DNA from: Capnocytophaga gingivalis ATCC 33624
GTDB taxonomy: Bacteria > Bacteroidota > Bacteroidia > Flavobacteriales > Flavobacteriaceae
Length of the DNA stretch: 64,000 bases
Reading direction: 5' to 3'
Assembly: GCF_000174755.1 (NCBI RefSeq)
Contig: NZ_ACLQ01000034.1
Coordinates: forward strand, 1-64,000
In this document: positions 12,724-32,069 of the stretch, piece by piece
Layout: each line of letters starts with the position of its first letter
Numbering within the stretch: the first letter of the stretch is position 1
Position numbers and translations under genes: made by a program
The notes under the pieces: model-generated
Seen by the model: only the letters and a program-made list of their open reading frames with translations
The model's database searches: none
Told to the model about the DNA's origin: nothing

Positions 12724-12890
12724 TTAAAAATTGTTTTGTCTTTTAAAAAAAGGTATAGTTTGTAAAATAAATACTGATATCTTCCCATTCTAAAGTAACT
12801 TTTATCTTTTTCATCATTTCTTCTTTAAAACAGGTGGTAATACACTAAATTATCTTCTATATCTTTTATCTATAGTCAAACAAATTTAGA

Positions 12891-12921
12891 TTGCGAATAA
12901 ATAAAAAATTTATTATTTTTG
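12891..12921 (+). promoter_or_regulatory. Promoter inside the IS630 left end
   Basis: TTG at 12891-12893 and TATTTTTG at 12914-12921 with a 20-base spacer, just before the degraded transposase ATG at 12930. Confidence 0.6.
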
Positions 12922-12929
12922 CACTGTCT

Positions 12930-13971
12930 ATGGAACTAAGACTGTAACCAACAGAAATAGAGGAACTTAGAAAGATCCAACGCAACTTGCAAGGTCGCTC
13001 GGATTATGCCCAAGTTACTTGTATTTTGATGCTTTCTATGGGCAATACTCCTATTTTTGTTGCTGATTGCTTAGGTATAGATATTTCTACTATTTATCGT
13101 TATCGTTCCTTATATCTTGAAGGAGGACTAGATAAACTCCTTGAGAATCGTTATAGAGGTTATCAAGGTCTGCTTAATATTTTTCAAATAGAATCCTTAA
13201 AACAAGAGTTACGCACACATCTTTATACAGATGCAAAACAAGTATCTCAATGGGTTAAAGACACTTTTGGAGTTACCTATACTTCACAAGGGATGGCTGA
13301 TTTACTTAACAGAATTGGTTTTTCTTACAAGAAAACAACCGAAGTGCCTTGTGAGGCAGATCCTTTAAAACAAAAACTATTTGTTGAAGCACTCTCTAAA
13401 ATTCTTCAAGAAAAGGAAGAAGGGGATGTGGTGTATTTTGCCGGTGGTGTTCATCCTACGCACAACAGCCGTTCCACTTATGCTTGGATAGAGAAAGGTA
13501 AAGAGTTTCAACAACCAACAGTTAGTGGGCGTGATAGATTGAATATCAATGGTTTACTTAATGCTTATGATGTTACAGATGTAATAGCTCTTGATTGTGA
13601 ATGCGTTAATGCAGAATCAACAAAAGAACTTTACGAATTAGCTCTTAAAAAGCATCCAAACGCTAAAAATATTTATATTATATCCGATAATGCTCGCTAC
13701 TATCACAATAAAGAACTTCAAAACTGGGTAGAAGATAATAGAATCAAGCAAATTTTTCTTGCCTCCATACTCTCCGAACCTCAATTTAATAGAGCGCTTG
13801 TGGAAATTCTTACGAAAAAAAGTAATCAATACGGGTTTCTATCGGAACAAGACAGAATTCCGAGATGCTATAAGGAATTTCTTTGATAATATACATACTT
13901 ATAAAAAGGAGTTAGAGTCACTTCTAACTCTCAATTTCCGTTTAATAAATTCACAAACCATTTCTTTTTGA
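12930..13971 (+). pseudogene. IS630-family transposase with nonsense, missense and frameshift lesions
   Basis: Joined conceptually from ATG at 12930. Codon 6 is TAA (12945-12947), where AAA (Lys) is likely ancestral. The frame then reads through a winged-helix N-terminal domain (GNTPIFVADCLGIDISTIYR). At about 13450 the DDE segment reads FAGGVHPTHNS, where family members have FADGVHPTHN; GGT replaces GAT at the first catalytic Asp. The second Asp is intact in IISDNARYYHNK. An extra T in the T run at 13753-13757 then shifts the frame. The remaining part, LPPYSPNLNLIERLWKFLRK with the catalytic Glu, continues in another frame to TGA at 13971. The family consensus is from memory. Confidence 0.85.
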
Positions 13972-13976
13972 CTATA

Positions 13977-14339
13977 ATAGCTTATCAACCCAAAGGCAGA
14001 TGTCTGACGAGGTTTGCCTTTGTTGACATTCAGAATCTTAGAAAGAACTATCTACAATCGTTTTTTGACGGCAACTTATGGCTTAACAAACGGTGTCAGA
14101 AGACTGACACGCTTTCAAACGTGCGACTGATAGATGCCGCTTTAAACATCATCAAAGGAGGGCAAGGGTAAAGGAGAGAATTTAGATGTGCTGAAAAAAT
14201 CTCCACCTTCACTTCGTGCGATCGCACGAAGTGAAGGTGGAGATTTTTTCAGTTCAAACTTTGTGTCGCTAAAACCCTACGGTTGGCATACTTCTGAAGA
14301 TGAGCGCATAGGCGTCTAACAAGAAAAGTTTTTTCATTG
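13977..14339. other. Unrecognised mobile-element debris between IS630 and a lipoprotein gene
   Basis: About 360 bases with somewhat higher GC than the surroundings. An open frame from about 13968 to 14171 could encode about 67 residues ending RLIDAALNIIKGGQG, but its start lies inside the IS630 right end, so it is at most the 3' remnant of a gene cut by the insertion. I do not recognise it. The stretch also holds the 62-bp perfect palindrome at 14191-14252. The part after the palindrome (14253-14339) shows no gene. Confidence 0.5.
14191..14252. repeat. Perfect 62-bp palindrome (31-bp arms, no loop)
   Basis: Read base by base, 14191-14221 is the exact reverse complement of 14222-14252. The centre is GTGCGATCGCAC and the outer ends are CTGAAAAAATCTCC and GGAGATTTTTTCAG. 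A transcript from either strand would fold into a very stable hairpin ending in six Us, so it could terminate transcription in both directions. A mobile-element end or resolution site is another possibility. Confidence 0.95.
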
Positions 14340-15401
14340 CTAATAATATACTATTTTTCTACTTTGGTGTTCGATATATTTGCCATTCCTGTAGGTTTGT
14401 TTTAGGGTCCAGTTACCTTGAGTGTCGTACTTGTAGCGGTAGGTAGTTACGGAGGTTGCTGTGGTATTGTCTTCTTTTTTGTAGCTTAATTCTCTGCGAC
14501 TTATATCGCCTTGTGGGGTGTATTGATAGCGGTATTTTTCAGCTTGATCTAGAGGGAACTTGGTGTTGTATTCAGTTTTTTCAACTACTTGATTTTTATC
14601 GTTGTATTGATATTCTGCTATAAACTGATCGTATCTTATTTCCTTGATTAATTGTCCTTTATCATTGTAGTGATATAGTTTTTCTTCTTTTAGTTCTCCT
14701 TCTTTTAGTTGGTTTTTATCGTAGTTAGTAATGCTTTTAATCTGCCTATCGGGGGTGTAGCCTATTTCTAAGCTTAAGGTATTCTTCTCACCAAAAGAAC
14801 GCAAGCGCTGCAGGTTACCTTTGTCGTCATAATCAATTTTCAGGGAGAAGACCACCTCTTCACCATTATTAAAGAAGACTTCGGTGCAGTATTGTTTACC
14901 GTTCTTGGTTTGGTAATTAAAATAAACGATTTTGCCCTCTTGATAGGCAATATGGCTTATTTGTCCGTCATCATTGCGGGTGATGATACGATTTTCAGAC
15001 AAGAAAAACACATCTAAGCTGCCTTGCAGGGGTGTATCTAAGAAATCTTTAACGTGAGTTTCGTGGTATTCCATCTGGTCTTGGCCTGTGAGGGAATCTT
15101 TCGAATAAGAGGGAGGATCCCAGATACATATAGGGAACTGATAGATGAAGGTTTCTTTAGTAAAGAACTCATCATTGAAGTGATCTTGGCGGAAGGTAAG
15201 ACGCCCTAAGGTATCGTACTCTGAGATGATAGGCAAGGTATCATTTCTGTATTGCTGATAAGTGATGAGTTGTTTTACTCTGCCGCGAAGATGCTCTTTT
15301 TCCCAATCGGAGAAAGGATTGGAAGGTTCTGGTCTTTGAGAGCAGCTTATCATCAAGCAAGACAGGAAAAGTGCTATTTGTATTTTGGATATGTATTTCA
15401 T
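14340..15401 (-). CDS. Lipoprotein with YD/RHS-like repeats
   Basis: The preferred start is ATG at 15401-15399, giving MKYISKIQIALFLSCLMISC, a lipoprotein signal with LMISC as lipobox; a longer frame adds eight unlikely residues. The mature part has repeated aromatic units such as YHYNDKGQLIKEIRY, YQYNDKNQVVEKTEY, YRYQYTPQGD and YRYKYDTQGNW. These resemble the YD repeats of RHS proteins but are short and few, suggesting a small beta-rich envelope protein. The product at 41479-42525 has the same design. Function unknown. It lies between two insertion sequences and has no operon partner. Confidence 0.7.
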   Translation of the reverse strand: MKYISKIQIALFLSCLMISCSQRPEPSNPFSDWEKEHLRGRVKQLITYQQYRNDTLPIISEYDTLGRLTFRQDHFNDEFFTKETFIYQFPICIWDPPSYSKDSLTGQDQMEYHETHVKDFLDTPLQGSLDVFFLSENRIITRNDDGQISHIAYQEGKIVYFNYQTKNGKQYCTEVFFNNGEEVVFSLKIDYDDKGNLQRLRSFGEKNTLSLEIGYTPDRQIKSITNYDKNQLKEGELKEEKLYHYNDKGQLIKEIRYDQFIAEYQYNDKNQVVEKTEYNTKFPLDQAEKYRYQYTPQGDISRRELSYKKEDNTTATSVTTYRYKYDTQGNWTLKQTYRNGKYIEHQSRKIVYY

Positions 15402-15524
15402 AGAGTGTTTTGCTATGTGCGGCAAAGGTAAGCATTTATTTTGAGAGAAGCCCCTCTTTGCTGTTTTTTATTAGGTCAAACGCATCAAAATTTAAATTAA
15501 TCATCTGATTATCATAATTATTCT

Positions 15525-15554: not shown

Positions 15555-16685
15555 ATGAGTGCAGAAATTTGGAATGCTATTGCAGTTGTAAAAGACCCAC
15601 GAGTTCAAGGAAGAATTGATTATCCTTTAGGGTTGATATTATTGGTAAGCTTATATGCAACTATATCAGGATGTGATGATTGGGAGCAAATTGAAGATTA
15701 TGCTAATATCCATAGCGAAGACTTAAGAAATCTATATACTAAACTTTCTGGGAAAGAATTGAAGGTTAGCAGAATGCCTACTCACGATACCTTTAATCAT
15801 GTATTTCAGGTAATTGACCCCAAAGAATTTTTAGAGGTTTACAAAAAATTTATAATATCAATTTACGAAACTCTTACAGGTAAAACTATCGCCATTGATG
15901 GAAAAACACCAAGAGGAATAAAACAAACAGCAAACTCACATCCTTCTAATATTGTTTCAGCCTATTGTACTGACCATCATTTTGTTATAGACCATATAAA
16001 TAGTGAAGTCAAAGGACACGAATTATCCTCAATACTGGATCTTATAAAGCTATTATTTCTTGAAAATAATACGGTAACTATTGATGCAGCAGGTACTTAT
16101 GTTGAAGTTATTGAGATGATTCTCTCAAAAGGAGGTAACTTTGTCTTGCCAGTAAAAGGTAATCAGAAAAAACTATTAGAGTTCATAGAAAAGGAATTTA
16201 GAGAATATCGGGGAAATACAGTATCTGCTGATACACAAGAAGATATAGGACATGGGAGGGTTGAGAAGCGAACGGTTTATTGTATTACAGAAATAAAAAC
16301 AGACGATGATATAGATGGCTGTATGCAAAAGTGGAAGGGGGTAAAAACTTTGGTGAAGATAGTTCGTGAGGTATATAAGAAAGCAGATAAAAGTACCCGC
16401 ATAGAAACCGTTTATTACATAACGAATTTGATAGATCCAAAAGAGATAAATCGCGCTATACGAGCACATTGGGGAATAGAAAATAATCTACATAGGTCAT
16501 TAGATGTGCTGCTCAATGAAGACCATAGTCAAAAAAGTAATCATAATGTGGTTGAGAACTTCCACATAATGAGCTTATTAGCACTTTTTATAATAAAAGA
16601 GATAAGTAAACAAAGAGGAATTAGTATGAACCGTACCCGAAAACTATGTGGCTATTCTTCCCCTTCTAAACTCCTTGTTAATTAA
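15555..16685 (+). CDS. ISAs1-family transposase
   Basis: A 376-residue DDE transposase with no visible lesion. The N-terminal part (KDPRVQGRIDYPLGLILLVSL) is the DDE_Tnp_1-associated domain. The catalytic core shows AIDGKTPRG (first Asp, about residue 114), TIDAAGTYVEV (second Asp) and the C-terminal RAHWGIENNLHRSLDVLLNE with the Glu. Also typical are VLPVKGNQKKL and SAYCTDHH. It resembles the E. coli H-repeat proteins. The element appears potentially active, in contrast to the IS630 copy 1.5 kb upstream. Confidence 0.93.
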   Translation: MSAEIWNAIAVVKDPRVQGRIDYPLGLILLVSLYATISGCDDWEQIEDYANIHSEDLRNLYTKLSGKELKVSRMPTHDTFNHVFQVIDPKEFLEVYKKFIISIYETLTGKTIAIDGKTPRGIKQTANSHPSNIVSAYCTDHHFVIDHINSEVKGHELSSILDLIKLLFLENNTVTIDAAGTYVEVIEMILSKGGNFVLPVKGNQKKLLEFIEKEFREYRGNTVSADTQEDIGHGRVEKRTVYCITEIKTDDDIDGCMQKWKGVKTLVKIVREVYKKADKSTRIETVYYITNLIDPKEINRAIRAHWGIENNLHRSLDVLLNEDHSQKSNHNVVENFHIMSLLALFIIKEISKQRGISMNRTRKLCGYSSPSKLLVN

Positions 16686-30733: not shown

Positions 30734-30753
30734 TTTTAGGATTAAAGAAAAAT

Positions 30754-30793
30754 AAAGGGCTATAGGTTTTTTGCAAAAAACCTATAGCCCTTT
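30754..30793. terminator. Bidirectional terminator between lrp and hemA
   Basis: AAAGGGCTATAGGTTTTTTG followed by CAAAAAACCTATAGCCCTTT is a near-perfect 40-base inverted repeat in the convergent gap. It has U-rich tails in both directions. Confidence 0.9.
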
Positions 30794-30818
30794 ATTTCTT
30801 CATTCTCCCCTTAAATAA

Positions 30819-32069
30819 CTATAACTCAAAGACCTGTTTCATAAAGAGAAGGCTTTCCTCGGGGGTGCTGCTTTCCTTTAGGTGATTGATGAATTTGGTA
30901 GTGATTTTTTGAATGATTCTATCACTAATGATACTGGCTTGAAGTTCGTTGAAGTCAGTTGTTTTTTTGCGTTGGAAATCGATTTCTCCTTCTTTGAGAG
31001 TTTCTAAGGATTGCTTGAGTGCTTGTATGGCAGGGGCAAAACGTCGGTTCTGTAGCCATTGGTCGAACTCTTCCTTTATTTCTTCTATAATTTGCTGAGC
31101 TTGAGGTATAAAAGCCTTTCTACGCTCCAGAGTATCATCTGTCATTTGGGAGAGATAGTCCATATGGATAAGCCTTACCTTACTAAGTTCTTCTACATCT
31201 GTGGCAACATTCTTAGGAATGGATAGATCGAGGATAAGCATTTCTTTGTCAGAAGGCAGCATTTCCTTGGTAATCGTAGGAGTCTTGCTACCTGTAGCCA
31301 CTACTAAAACATCTGTTTGGGTAAGTTCTTCTTCGAGCAGCGCAAAATCTTTTACCAAAACATTGAACCTTCCGGCAATCTCTTGAGCTTTCTCCTTAGT
31401 GCGATTGATCAAGGTGATATGCTCATTTTGGGTATGCTTGATGAGGTTTTCACAGGTATTGCGACCAATCTTCCCCGTACCGAAAAGGAGAATATTTTTC
31501 TGAGAAATATCCACTACATTTTGTAGTATATACTGTACCGAAGCGAAAGAGACAGAAGTAGCGCCAGAGGAAAGTTCTGTTTCGTTTTTGATGCGTTTGC
31601 TTGCTTGGATTACAGAGTTTAGCAAGCGGTCCATGAAGGCGTTGATTAGGTTGTATTTTTTGGCTAAGGAGAAAGATTTCTTTAGCTGGCTAATCACCTC
31701 AAAGTCACCCAGAATCTGGCTATCCAATCCTGTACCCACATTGAAGAGGTGGTTAATAGCCTCCTTATTTTTGTAGATATATCCTACCTTTTCAAAGTCT
31801 TCAAGAGTTGCCTTGGAGTGGGCACATAGTTTCTGAATCAGCTGGAAAGGATGCTGGGCAAAGCCATAGAGTTCTGTTCGATTACAAGTAGAGAGGATCG
31901 CCAGTCCCTCCATTCCCTCCTGCTGAGAGAGGGAGAGAATACGCTCTTGATGCTCAGCATCAAGGCTAAAAAGCCCACGCATATCTGCATCTGCCTTTTT
32001 GTAGCTAATTCCAATAGTATAAAAATGAGTTTCTTTTTGAGTTGTATTTTGAGTCATCTCCATATCCAT
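30819..32069 (-). CDS. hemA: Glutamyl-tRNA reductase
   Basis: NADPH-dependent reductase of 416 residues that converts Glu-tRNA to glutamate-1-semialdehyde, the first committed step of the C5 tetrapyrrole pathway. The catalytic Cys62 lies in ILSTCNRTELYG. LDSQILGDFEVISQLK and the Rossmann segment ILLFGTGKIGRNTCENL follow. The C-terminal dimerisation helices end KQVFEL. The starts MDMEM and MTQN (fourth codon) are alternatives. A TATTTTTG box at 32087-32080 may be its promoter. It is divergent from an AraC-type regulator, an arrangement I remember from other Flavobacteriia. Other hem genes are not in the window. Confidence 0.95.
   Translation of the reverse strand: MDMEMTQNTTQKETHFYTIGISYKKADADMRGLFSLDAEHQERILSLSQQEGMEGLAILSTCNRTELYGFAQHPFQLIQKLCAHSKATLEDFEKVGYIYKNKEAINHLFNVGTGLDSQILGDFEVISQLKKSFSLAKKYNLINAFMDRLLNSVIQASKRIKNETELSSGATSVSFASVQYILQNVVDISQKNILLFGTGKIGRNTCENLIKHTQNEHITLINRTKEKAQEIAGRFNVLVKDFALLEEELTQTDVLVVATGSKTPTITKEMLPSDKEMLILDLSIPKNVATDVEELSKVRLIHMDYLSQMTDDTLERRKAFIPQAQQIIEEIKEEFDQWLQNRRFAPAIQALKQSLETLKEGEIDFQRKKTTDFNELQASIISDRIIQKITTKFINHLKESSTPEESLLFMKQVFEL

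Follow-up and report, generated by a model that had tools for sequence, protein, structure and literature searches.

A perfect palindrome in Capnocytophaga gingivalis: probable template-switch relic of a hairpin family proposed to act as a single-stranded-DNA promoter in Bacteroidota

Introduction

A 62-bp palindrome without a loop in Capnocytophaga gingivalis ATCC 33624 is an explained relic, and the explanation has two layers which, taken together, we consider quite probable: a template switch that made the palindrome perfect, and an older hairpin, belonging to a family of single-stranded-DNA (ssDNA) promoters, in which that switch took place. On comparison with its relatives, the perfection of the palindrome stems from the local rewriting of one arm. 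The hairpin family itself probably works as an ssDNA promoter, with or without a part in replication priming. On balance it also seems likely that conjugative plasmids, ICEs and mobilizable elements of the Bacteroidota carry phylum-specific promoters of this kind, which would fire establishment genes only while the DNA is single-stranded. The features that we propose for the class, with about the same measure of confidence, are a core that is fixed and asymmetric (AAAATCTCCA / GGTAGTATTTT), an apex that varies and a sigmaABfr -7 box that is half open.

A perfect palindrome in the remains of a mobile element

The window, by which we mean the whole stretch of 64,000 nucleotides that was analysed (positions 1 to 64,000 of contig NZ_ACLQ01000034.1), was scanned throughout for perfect inverted repeats with loops of 0-12. 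At 14191-14252, bases 14191-14221 are the reverse complement of 14222-14252 at 31/31 positions with a loop of zero; pairing then stops, the next two positions outward being unpaired on both sides. A sequence-only reading of this DNA had reported a loop-less perfect palindrome ending in a T6 run, and it was right on both points, a run of six standing at either end (CTGAAAAAAT / ATTTTTTCAG). The genome-wide search that it had proposed, as run with up to three mismatches allowed, returned a single copy. A palindrome of 31+31 is far beyond chance; the only other repeat in the scan with arms longer than 12 is at 30750-30797 (24+24). This second palindrome, likewise perfect and loop-less, lies between the converging ends of an AsnC-like and a hemA-like gene (names given by eye); an ordinary bidirectional terminator is the most likely reading of it. 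Only parts of its region find a match in related genomes.

The surroundings had been described as unrecognised debris between two insertion sequences. Mobile-element debris is what they are, and they can be recognised. The open reading frame at 13968-14171 (+ strand), which has no Pfam match of its own, is a tyrosine recombinase remnant, truncated at both ends and with an internal gap of 12 residues. It corresponds to the middle part of the enzyme, 39 of 77 aligned positions being identical to the intact gene of C. sputigena (locus L007; E 6e-25). Its left end is abutted by an insertion sequence at 12871-13976 (+ strand; HTH_33, HTH_29 and DDE_3 domains), which we take to be of the IS630 family and whose limits are set by imperfect terminal inverted repeats (12871-12906 and 13941-13976, 72%). 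To the right, a lipoprotein-like gene with weak RHS-repeat similarity (below the Pfam cut-off) occupies 14340-15425 on the minus strand, its 3′ end facing the palindrome. Near that gene, at 15555-16685, is a transposase with DDE_Tnp_1_assoc and DDE_Tnp_1 domains, presumably ISAs1-like.

Rewriting of one arm

The same-genus genome G011 carries the same locus at 98% identity over 3 kb, which speaks against the recent arrival that had been suggested, and its hairpin there is imperfect (CTGAAAAAATCTCCACCTTCACTTCGTGCGATCGCACGCTGCGTTCGTTCAGGTAGTATTTTTTCAG). The two sequences are identical over 14187-14228 and again from 14243; between these limits, 19 nt of the right arm (CTGCGTTCGTTCAGGTAGT) are represented in the window by 14 nt (AAGTGAAGGTGGAG), and this new tract, 14229-14242, is the exact reverse complement of 14201-14214 (14/14 nt). 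Read along the + strand, the element consists of a left arm and apex in the ancestral state, as judged by identity to G011 (14191-14228, with the family core AAAAAATCTCCA at 14194-14205), the rewritten tract in place of an ancestral right arm that had GGTAGT (14229-14242), and the remaining ancestral right arm with its flank (14243-14287). This last segment is homologous to the intact C. sputigena element, both by alignment with the C. sputigena genome (G018) and by a covariance-model match; with 13978-14345 of the window as query, positions 210-310 match that genome at 77%.

The polarity of the change follows from the relatives. Because the C. sputigena copy (G018, L007) also has the right arm GGTAGTATTTTTT seen in G011, G011 represents the ancestral state; and because G011, C. 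sputigena and 9/15 family members found without selecting for it keep this arm, in the last case in the form GGTAGTATTTT, the right arm of the window is the derived one. The ancestor was an imperfect inverted repeat, as it is in G011, C. sputigena and other Bacteroidota, and the derived tract is an exact complement of the other arm with its limits inside the repeat, just as in quasipalindrome template-switch mutation, where one arm is made identical to the other. We therefore hold it very likely, from these alignments, that the palindrome is what remains of a mobile-element hairpin, now decayed, and that a single event replaced its right arm with a copy of the left. The comparison documents the change of arm; the mechanism behind it we infer to be a template switch, in which a polymerase would stall in the quasipalindrome, fold back, copy the other arm and then return, leaving both arms identical. 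Arm correction is described as a known outcome of template switching in quasipalindromes (PMC7202029, PMC3820800, PMC8604942). Unlike the mutations described there, the present one is a natural event in a mobile-element relic, visible between two species, and it extended arm identity to 31/31. The window copy is a clean natural example of quasipalindrome correction.

Perfect palindromes can also be artefacts, and a fold-back chimera in the reads or the assembly could have produced perfect arms. Such an origin is highly improbable here: fold-back chimeras are expected to continue as inverted copies, whereas here the altered tract spans 14 nt of a 96.8-kb contig and gives way to the ancestral right flank at 14243. 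The same return of the flank speaks against the fusion point of an inverted duplication, one of the origins offered from sequence alone. Nor is a mobile-element end, which had also been offered, supported by the Capnocytophaga relatives compared: their shared boundary lies beyond the other end of the recombinase and their alignments run on for about 180 nt past the hairpin. A bidirectional terminator, the remaining suggestion, has more to recommend it. A G+C-bearing stem followed by a T run is present on both strands, and the palindrome scores as terminator-like on both, a predicted function; it may terminate transcription on either strand, and could do so for the lipoprotein-like gene at 14340-15425. 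It lies 87 nt beyond the 3′ end of this minus-strand gene, and the other long palindrome of the window is also found between convergent genes. That the palindrome was kept as a terminator between the recombinase remnant and the convergent gene is nevertheless a tentative idea, which we think rather less probable than not, given that the family is mostly found upstream of operons and that the ancestral arms are imperfect; it would cover a possible present side-use, and neither the origin nor the perfection of the palindrome.

As a member of its family the window copy is much reduced. The covariance-model match covers 14168-14264 on the + strand, the correct strand, at 23.2 bits (E 0.004); the same model gives 37.8 bits for G011, 51.6 for C. 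sputigena, 57.9 for plasmid p5482, and 59.1 and 87.7 for two ICE copies. Like the G011 copy, that of the window is without the outer left arm and its boxes; no establishment operon accompanies it and its recombinase is broken. Because outer arm, boxes, operon and intact recombinase are all missing, the window copy is, to judge from what is left of it, dead as a promoter.

A conserved hairpin family

The ancestral layout of the hairpin is AAAAAATCTCCA-apex-GGTAGTATTTTTT. In C. sputigena it stands just downstream of the intact tyrosine recombinase, where a stretch of 261 nt folds as a single long hairpin (-98 kcal/mol with RNA parameters, z -7.8); a low-complexity tract rich in ACGT/GTAC (L007, 1260-1430) lies beside it. 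Related recombinases followed by the hairpin occur in same-genus genomes, and the 10 loci examined beyond L007 all have AAAAAATCTCCA...GGTAGTATTTTT. No match to the window locus or to the C. sputigena element was obtained in the plasmid and phage collections searched, and a family-level DNA search of 149 genomes gave two, the window's own genome and one match of about 25 bases.

The wider family was gathered with the pattern AAAATCTCCN{12,42}GGTAGTATTTT, which matches at least 119 stretches of genome contigs and 9 viral contigs. Among the 131 core matches listed, 9 were too near a sequence end and 122 had enough flank; setting aside 36 below an arm-complementarity z of 3 left 86, and removal of 9 near-duplicates left 77 elements. 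Among the matches listed, there is one per locus in 125/128 loci. Of the 80 loci with titles listed, 52 pass z 3, and by title 51 of these are Bacteroidota and one is Ignavibacteria; the Ruminococcus, Lentibacillus, Patescibacteria, Sedimentisphaerales and Pseudomonadota records listed fail it, as do some Bacteroidota. The strict core pattern is rare (2/395 genomes). A looser core occurs in 9/20 genomes of the window's genus and is absent from the window's own genome.

The family is almost certainly a real conserved structure. Across 47 aligned elements (46 distinct), a 23-pair stem has 91% standard pairs, with a covariation score of 0.298 as against 0.094 in shuffled alignments (0/500 reach it) and at most 0.109 when slid; stem cells changed on both sides number 131, the shuffled mean being 40 (0/500). 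These elements come from the 54/77 whose core match does not exceed 52 nt and whose left and right anchors are of the CAAG and CTTG type, respectively; seven of the 54 were removed by hand as ill-fitting. The trimming anchors favour part of the outermost helix, an effect of which the variable pairs of the inner two helices are free, and nine core pairs are invariant by selection, their letters being fixed by the search pattern. The same pattern fixes the letters of an asymmetric conserved bulge, CT opposite TAGT. In an earlier alignment of 40 sequences (the 40/77 elements with a promoter box 40-56 nt out), 10/21 pairs showed compensatory change. At the element itself Rfam gave no family in the 17 loci searched at gathering score and none in 2 loci at E <=1, where one sub-threshold match sits in repetitive flank.

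Several variations on this architecture were observed. Loci L082 (4223-4644), L092 (5537-6763) and L078 (7432-7956) each have two direct-oriented elements, 387-1169 bp apart, and in two of them, L082 and L092, the second copy is followed by a DUF6943-like gene, which suggests that the hairpin was duplicated in the manner of a cassette. L184-L188 and L192 have a much longer apex (about 55-75 nt) and are mostly followed by DUF6943-like genes, the apices of L184-L186 having GTTTCAAAACA and CCGATTTC in common. A different hairpin, recognised by eye upstream of ardC in CP103173.1 (L173, 42440-42560), reads TTTTTCCACC...CCTACAAAAA with long outer arms and possibly represents a second family of the same kind.

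Promoter boxes on the folded strand

Bacteroidota sigmaABfr promoters are described as having TAnnTTTG at -7 and TTTG near -33 (PMC7366714). On the reverse strand of the 100-nt left arm, TAnnTTTG is present in 54/77 elements, where 200 mononucleotide shuffles gave a mean of 2.9 and a highest count of 7; the other positions have it in 1 (left forward), 1 (right forward) and 2 (right reverse) of the 77. The shuffles used here, as those for arm complementarity and folding, keep base composition and not dinucleotides. The exact box is absent from the left arm in 23/77 elements, which counts against an ssDNA promoter. In duplex DNA the box points away from the co-oriented genes; in the folded reverse strand it points into them and is half open. 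With that strand folded, the left arm is the non-template and the right arm the template, so that transcription would leave the base of the hairpin into the co-oriented genes.

Where the box stands 28-70 nt out (51 elements), the minus strand folds as DNA at z < -3 in 51/51 (median -5.8; 30 mononucleotide shuffles each), and folds and covariation both point to a stable hairpin of the single strand. Within the 51 folds, the six leading bases of the box pair with the opposite arm in 33-49% of cases; between -26 and -20 the figure is 65-80%, and at positions 7-18 past the box start it is 71-90%. In 37/51 elements, by raw count, a TTG precedes the box at a distance of 20-27 nt, with a peak at 22-25; for 302 ordinary promoters in the same loci the TTG-to-box distance peaks at 22-23, more narrowly than in the hairpin elements. 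The -33 spacing thus fits sigmaABfr promoters approximately. Of the 31 elements for which a box and 1.2 kb on both sides were available, 22 have a right-hand gene placed as the folded reading requires, and 7 have a left-hand gene placed as the duplex reading requires; 6 belong to both groups and 8 to neither.

An out-of-sample set was obtained with a covariance model that ends short of the box. In 148 Bacteroidota genomes it gave 16 matches in 9 genomes, of which 15, from 8 genomes, were used (the G294 match was left out, and two pairs are near-identical); 0/15 match the original search pattern. The box is on the left-arm reverse strand in 10/15 and at each other position in 0/15; by eye, four of the five elements without the exact box have something close to it. 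Downstream, the first ORF of >=90 aa runs in the same direction in 10/15 and is opposed in 5/15, and by eye SSB-like and DUF6943-like proteins recur downstream. The exact box is also found in the C. sputigena copy and one ICE copy, and not in the other ICE copy or in the p5482 copy, where the sequence (GACCTTTG) departs from it by one base.

Genes downstream and the strand of transfer

The nearest downstream ORF (>=100 aa, within 2 kb) is co-oriented in 53/65 elements; it is opposed in the other 12, by mechanically called ORFs, which counts against an ssDNA promoter. Upstream, the nearest ORF is on the plus strand in 39 and on the minus strand in 27 (n=66), and ordinary leftward transcription may serve some elements. 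The co-oriented downstream proteins, 104 distinct ones of 108 from 55/77 elements, match Pfam as DUF6266 (7), DUF932, PcfK, DUF6943 and PcfJ (5 each), SSB (3), and RadC, ArdA and ArdC (2 each). We take ArdC, RadC, PcfK, PcfJ and DUF932 to be leading-region or establishment genes, and know of no function for DUF6266 and DUF6943. SSB and ArdA are described as leading-region genes (PMC11541004, PMC9849209). These downstream genes place the family upstream of early establishment and anti-defence genes. PADLOC, for the 25 of 80 families of downstream proteins listed, gave one member each, mostly from methyltransferase models, and a DUF932 search of plasmids had no Bacteroidota among the matches listed.

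Plasmid p5482 of B. thetaiotaomicron VPI-5482, which is typed as conjugative (MOBB), has the element at 31379-31460 with ardC next, at 31850; both are on the + strand, as is the bfmA/btgA mobilization gene. The circular NZ_OR675140.1 of B. fragilis, which PLSDB types as non-mobilizable, we read as a CTnDOT-like ICE from its tet(Q), rte, mob and tra genes. One of its hairpins stands before a series of genes that includes PcfK and PcfJ, on the mobABC strand; the other is on the same strand as the bfmA/DUF5712 genes of its element, which we read as a nested mobilizable element. A match in NZ_OY725924 was left out, annotation showing chromosomal-type genes alongside. In pBFY46 and CP103173, ardC precedes rep and mob genes, but there is no exact core and no model match at E <=1. 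Relaxase orientation (PF03432) was compared in 40/128 hand-chosen loci from 39 genomes, in which 57 hairpins were found; the comparison kept the 12 that have a relaxase match on their own contig at up to 30 kb and set aside the other 45. The hairpin is on the strand of the nearest relaxase in 11/12 cases (10 contigs), one relaxase match scoring under the Pfam threshold. G179:C22:469598 is the exception; in G172 a pair 64 kb apart is likewise opposed.

A proposed mechanism and its relation to Frpo

The transferred strand would be the reverse strand as oriented here. On entering the recipient it would fold, and pairing of its arms would restore duplex in two places, at the -33 region (CCTTG) close to the loop and in a stretch further down; the TAnnTTTG -7 box between the two would often be unpaired. 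Using the transferred strand as its template, RNA polymerase would then leave the hairpin at its base and transcribe the co-oriented establishment genes. Upon conversion to double strand, the same boxes would point away from these genes, and the burst would end.

Frpo is described as a stem-loop that reconstitutes -10 and -35 boxes (PMC9849209). Like Frpo/ssi of F and ColIb-P9, as described in PMC9849209 and PMC11541004, our hairpin lies upstream of SSB- or anti-restriction-type genes, and, going by the described geometry, its boxes too are rebuilt when the strand folds; that geometry would also have the box-bearing arm read out of the hairpin into the template, as in Frpo. The family differs in its boxes (sigmaABfr TAnnTTTG and CCTTG, as against TTGACA/TATAAT) and in its hosts, Bacteroidota with one Ignavibacteria record rather than enterobacteria, and its core AAAATCTCCA...GGTAGTATTTT is absent from the descriptions of Frpo/ssi consulted in those two papers. 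By analogy, and with roughly the confidence that we place in the promoter function itself, the family would be the Bacteroidota counterpart of Frpo.

Other functions deserve consideration. The hairpin could act in the 5′ untranslated RNA of the operon, as an attenuator, riboregulator or protein-binding site, in keeping with its place upstream of co-oriented genes, its strong covariation and its asymmetric bulge, whose letters the search pattern fixed. An RNA leader would, however, leave unexplained both the reverse-strand sigmaABfr box of the outer left arm (54/77) and why pairing within the outer stem is lowest at this box; wobble pairs, 12 on the would-be RNA strand and 27 on the other, are suggestive only, and no Rfam family was found at the loci searched. 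We regard this as unlikely, and as no less unlikely a site of the ssi/sso type, where recruitment of RNA polymerase or primase by the folded strand would serve mainly in priming complementary-strand synthesis. Its geometry would be the same as that of an ssDNA promoter, and Masai and Arai reportedly found in 1997 that Frpo both promotes and primes. A review likewise has Frpo serving as promoter and primer (PMC9024699). Pure priming does not predict a position upstream of co-oriented establishment genes.

More improbable still is a folded, attC-like att site of the neighbouring tyrosine recombinase. Such an enzyme lies within 3 kb in at least 18/128 loci (a lower bound from clustering), and GCAAAGGTA / TACCTTTGC presumably resembles the core of CTnDOT-type att sites. 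In the remaining loci no recombinase was recognised, however, the p5482 element adjoins ardC, and 13 Capnocytophaga copies share a boundary beyond the recombinase 5′ end, with alignments that run about 180 nt or more past the hairpin. Integron attC sites have a conserved stem, extrahelical bases and a variable terminal loop, and form cassette arrays. The family shares the first three of these features; unlike attC, it occurs once per locus in 125/128 loci rather than in cassette arrays, is not tied to a recombinase and carries promoter boxes. Att-site and attC readings were rejected as the main role.

Conclusion

Among gut bacteria, conjugative elements of the Bacteroidota play a major part in carrying resistance and fitness genes, and promoters of the kind proposed here would let them express defence-evading genes before becoming double-stranded. 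In the open-access papers searched we found no report of a Bacteroidota ssDNA promoter. The accessible parts of PMC9024699 and PMC3969726 describe none, and a broad leading-region study sought new candidates, in the part of it available, by the E. coli -35/-10 consensus (PMC11541004); its main text has no word starting with "bacteroid". The hairpin family can serve as a marker for leading regions and points to DUF6266, DUF6943 and DUF932 as candidate establishment genes. If the ssDNA promoter proposed here is real, it would account for zygotic expression in the Bacteroidota, a phylum in which a search built on the E. coli promoter consensus could find nothing.
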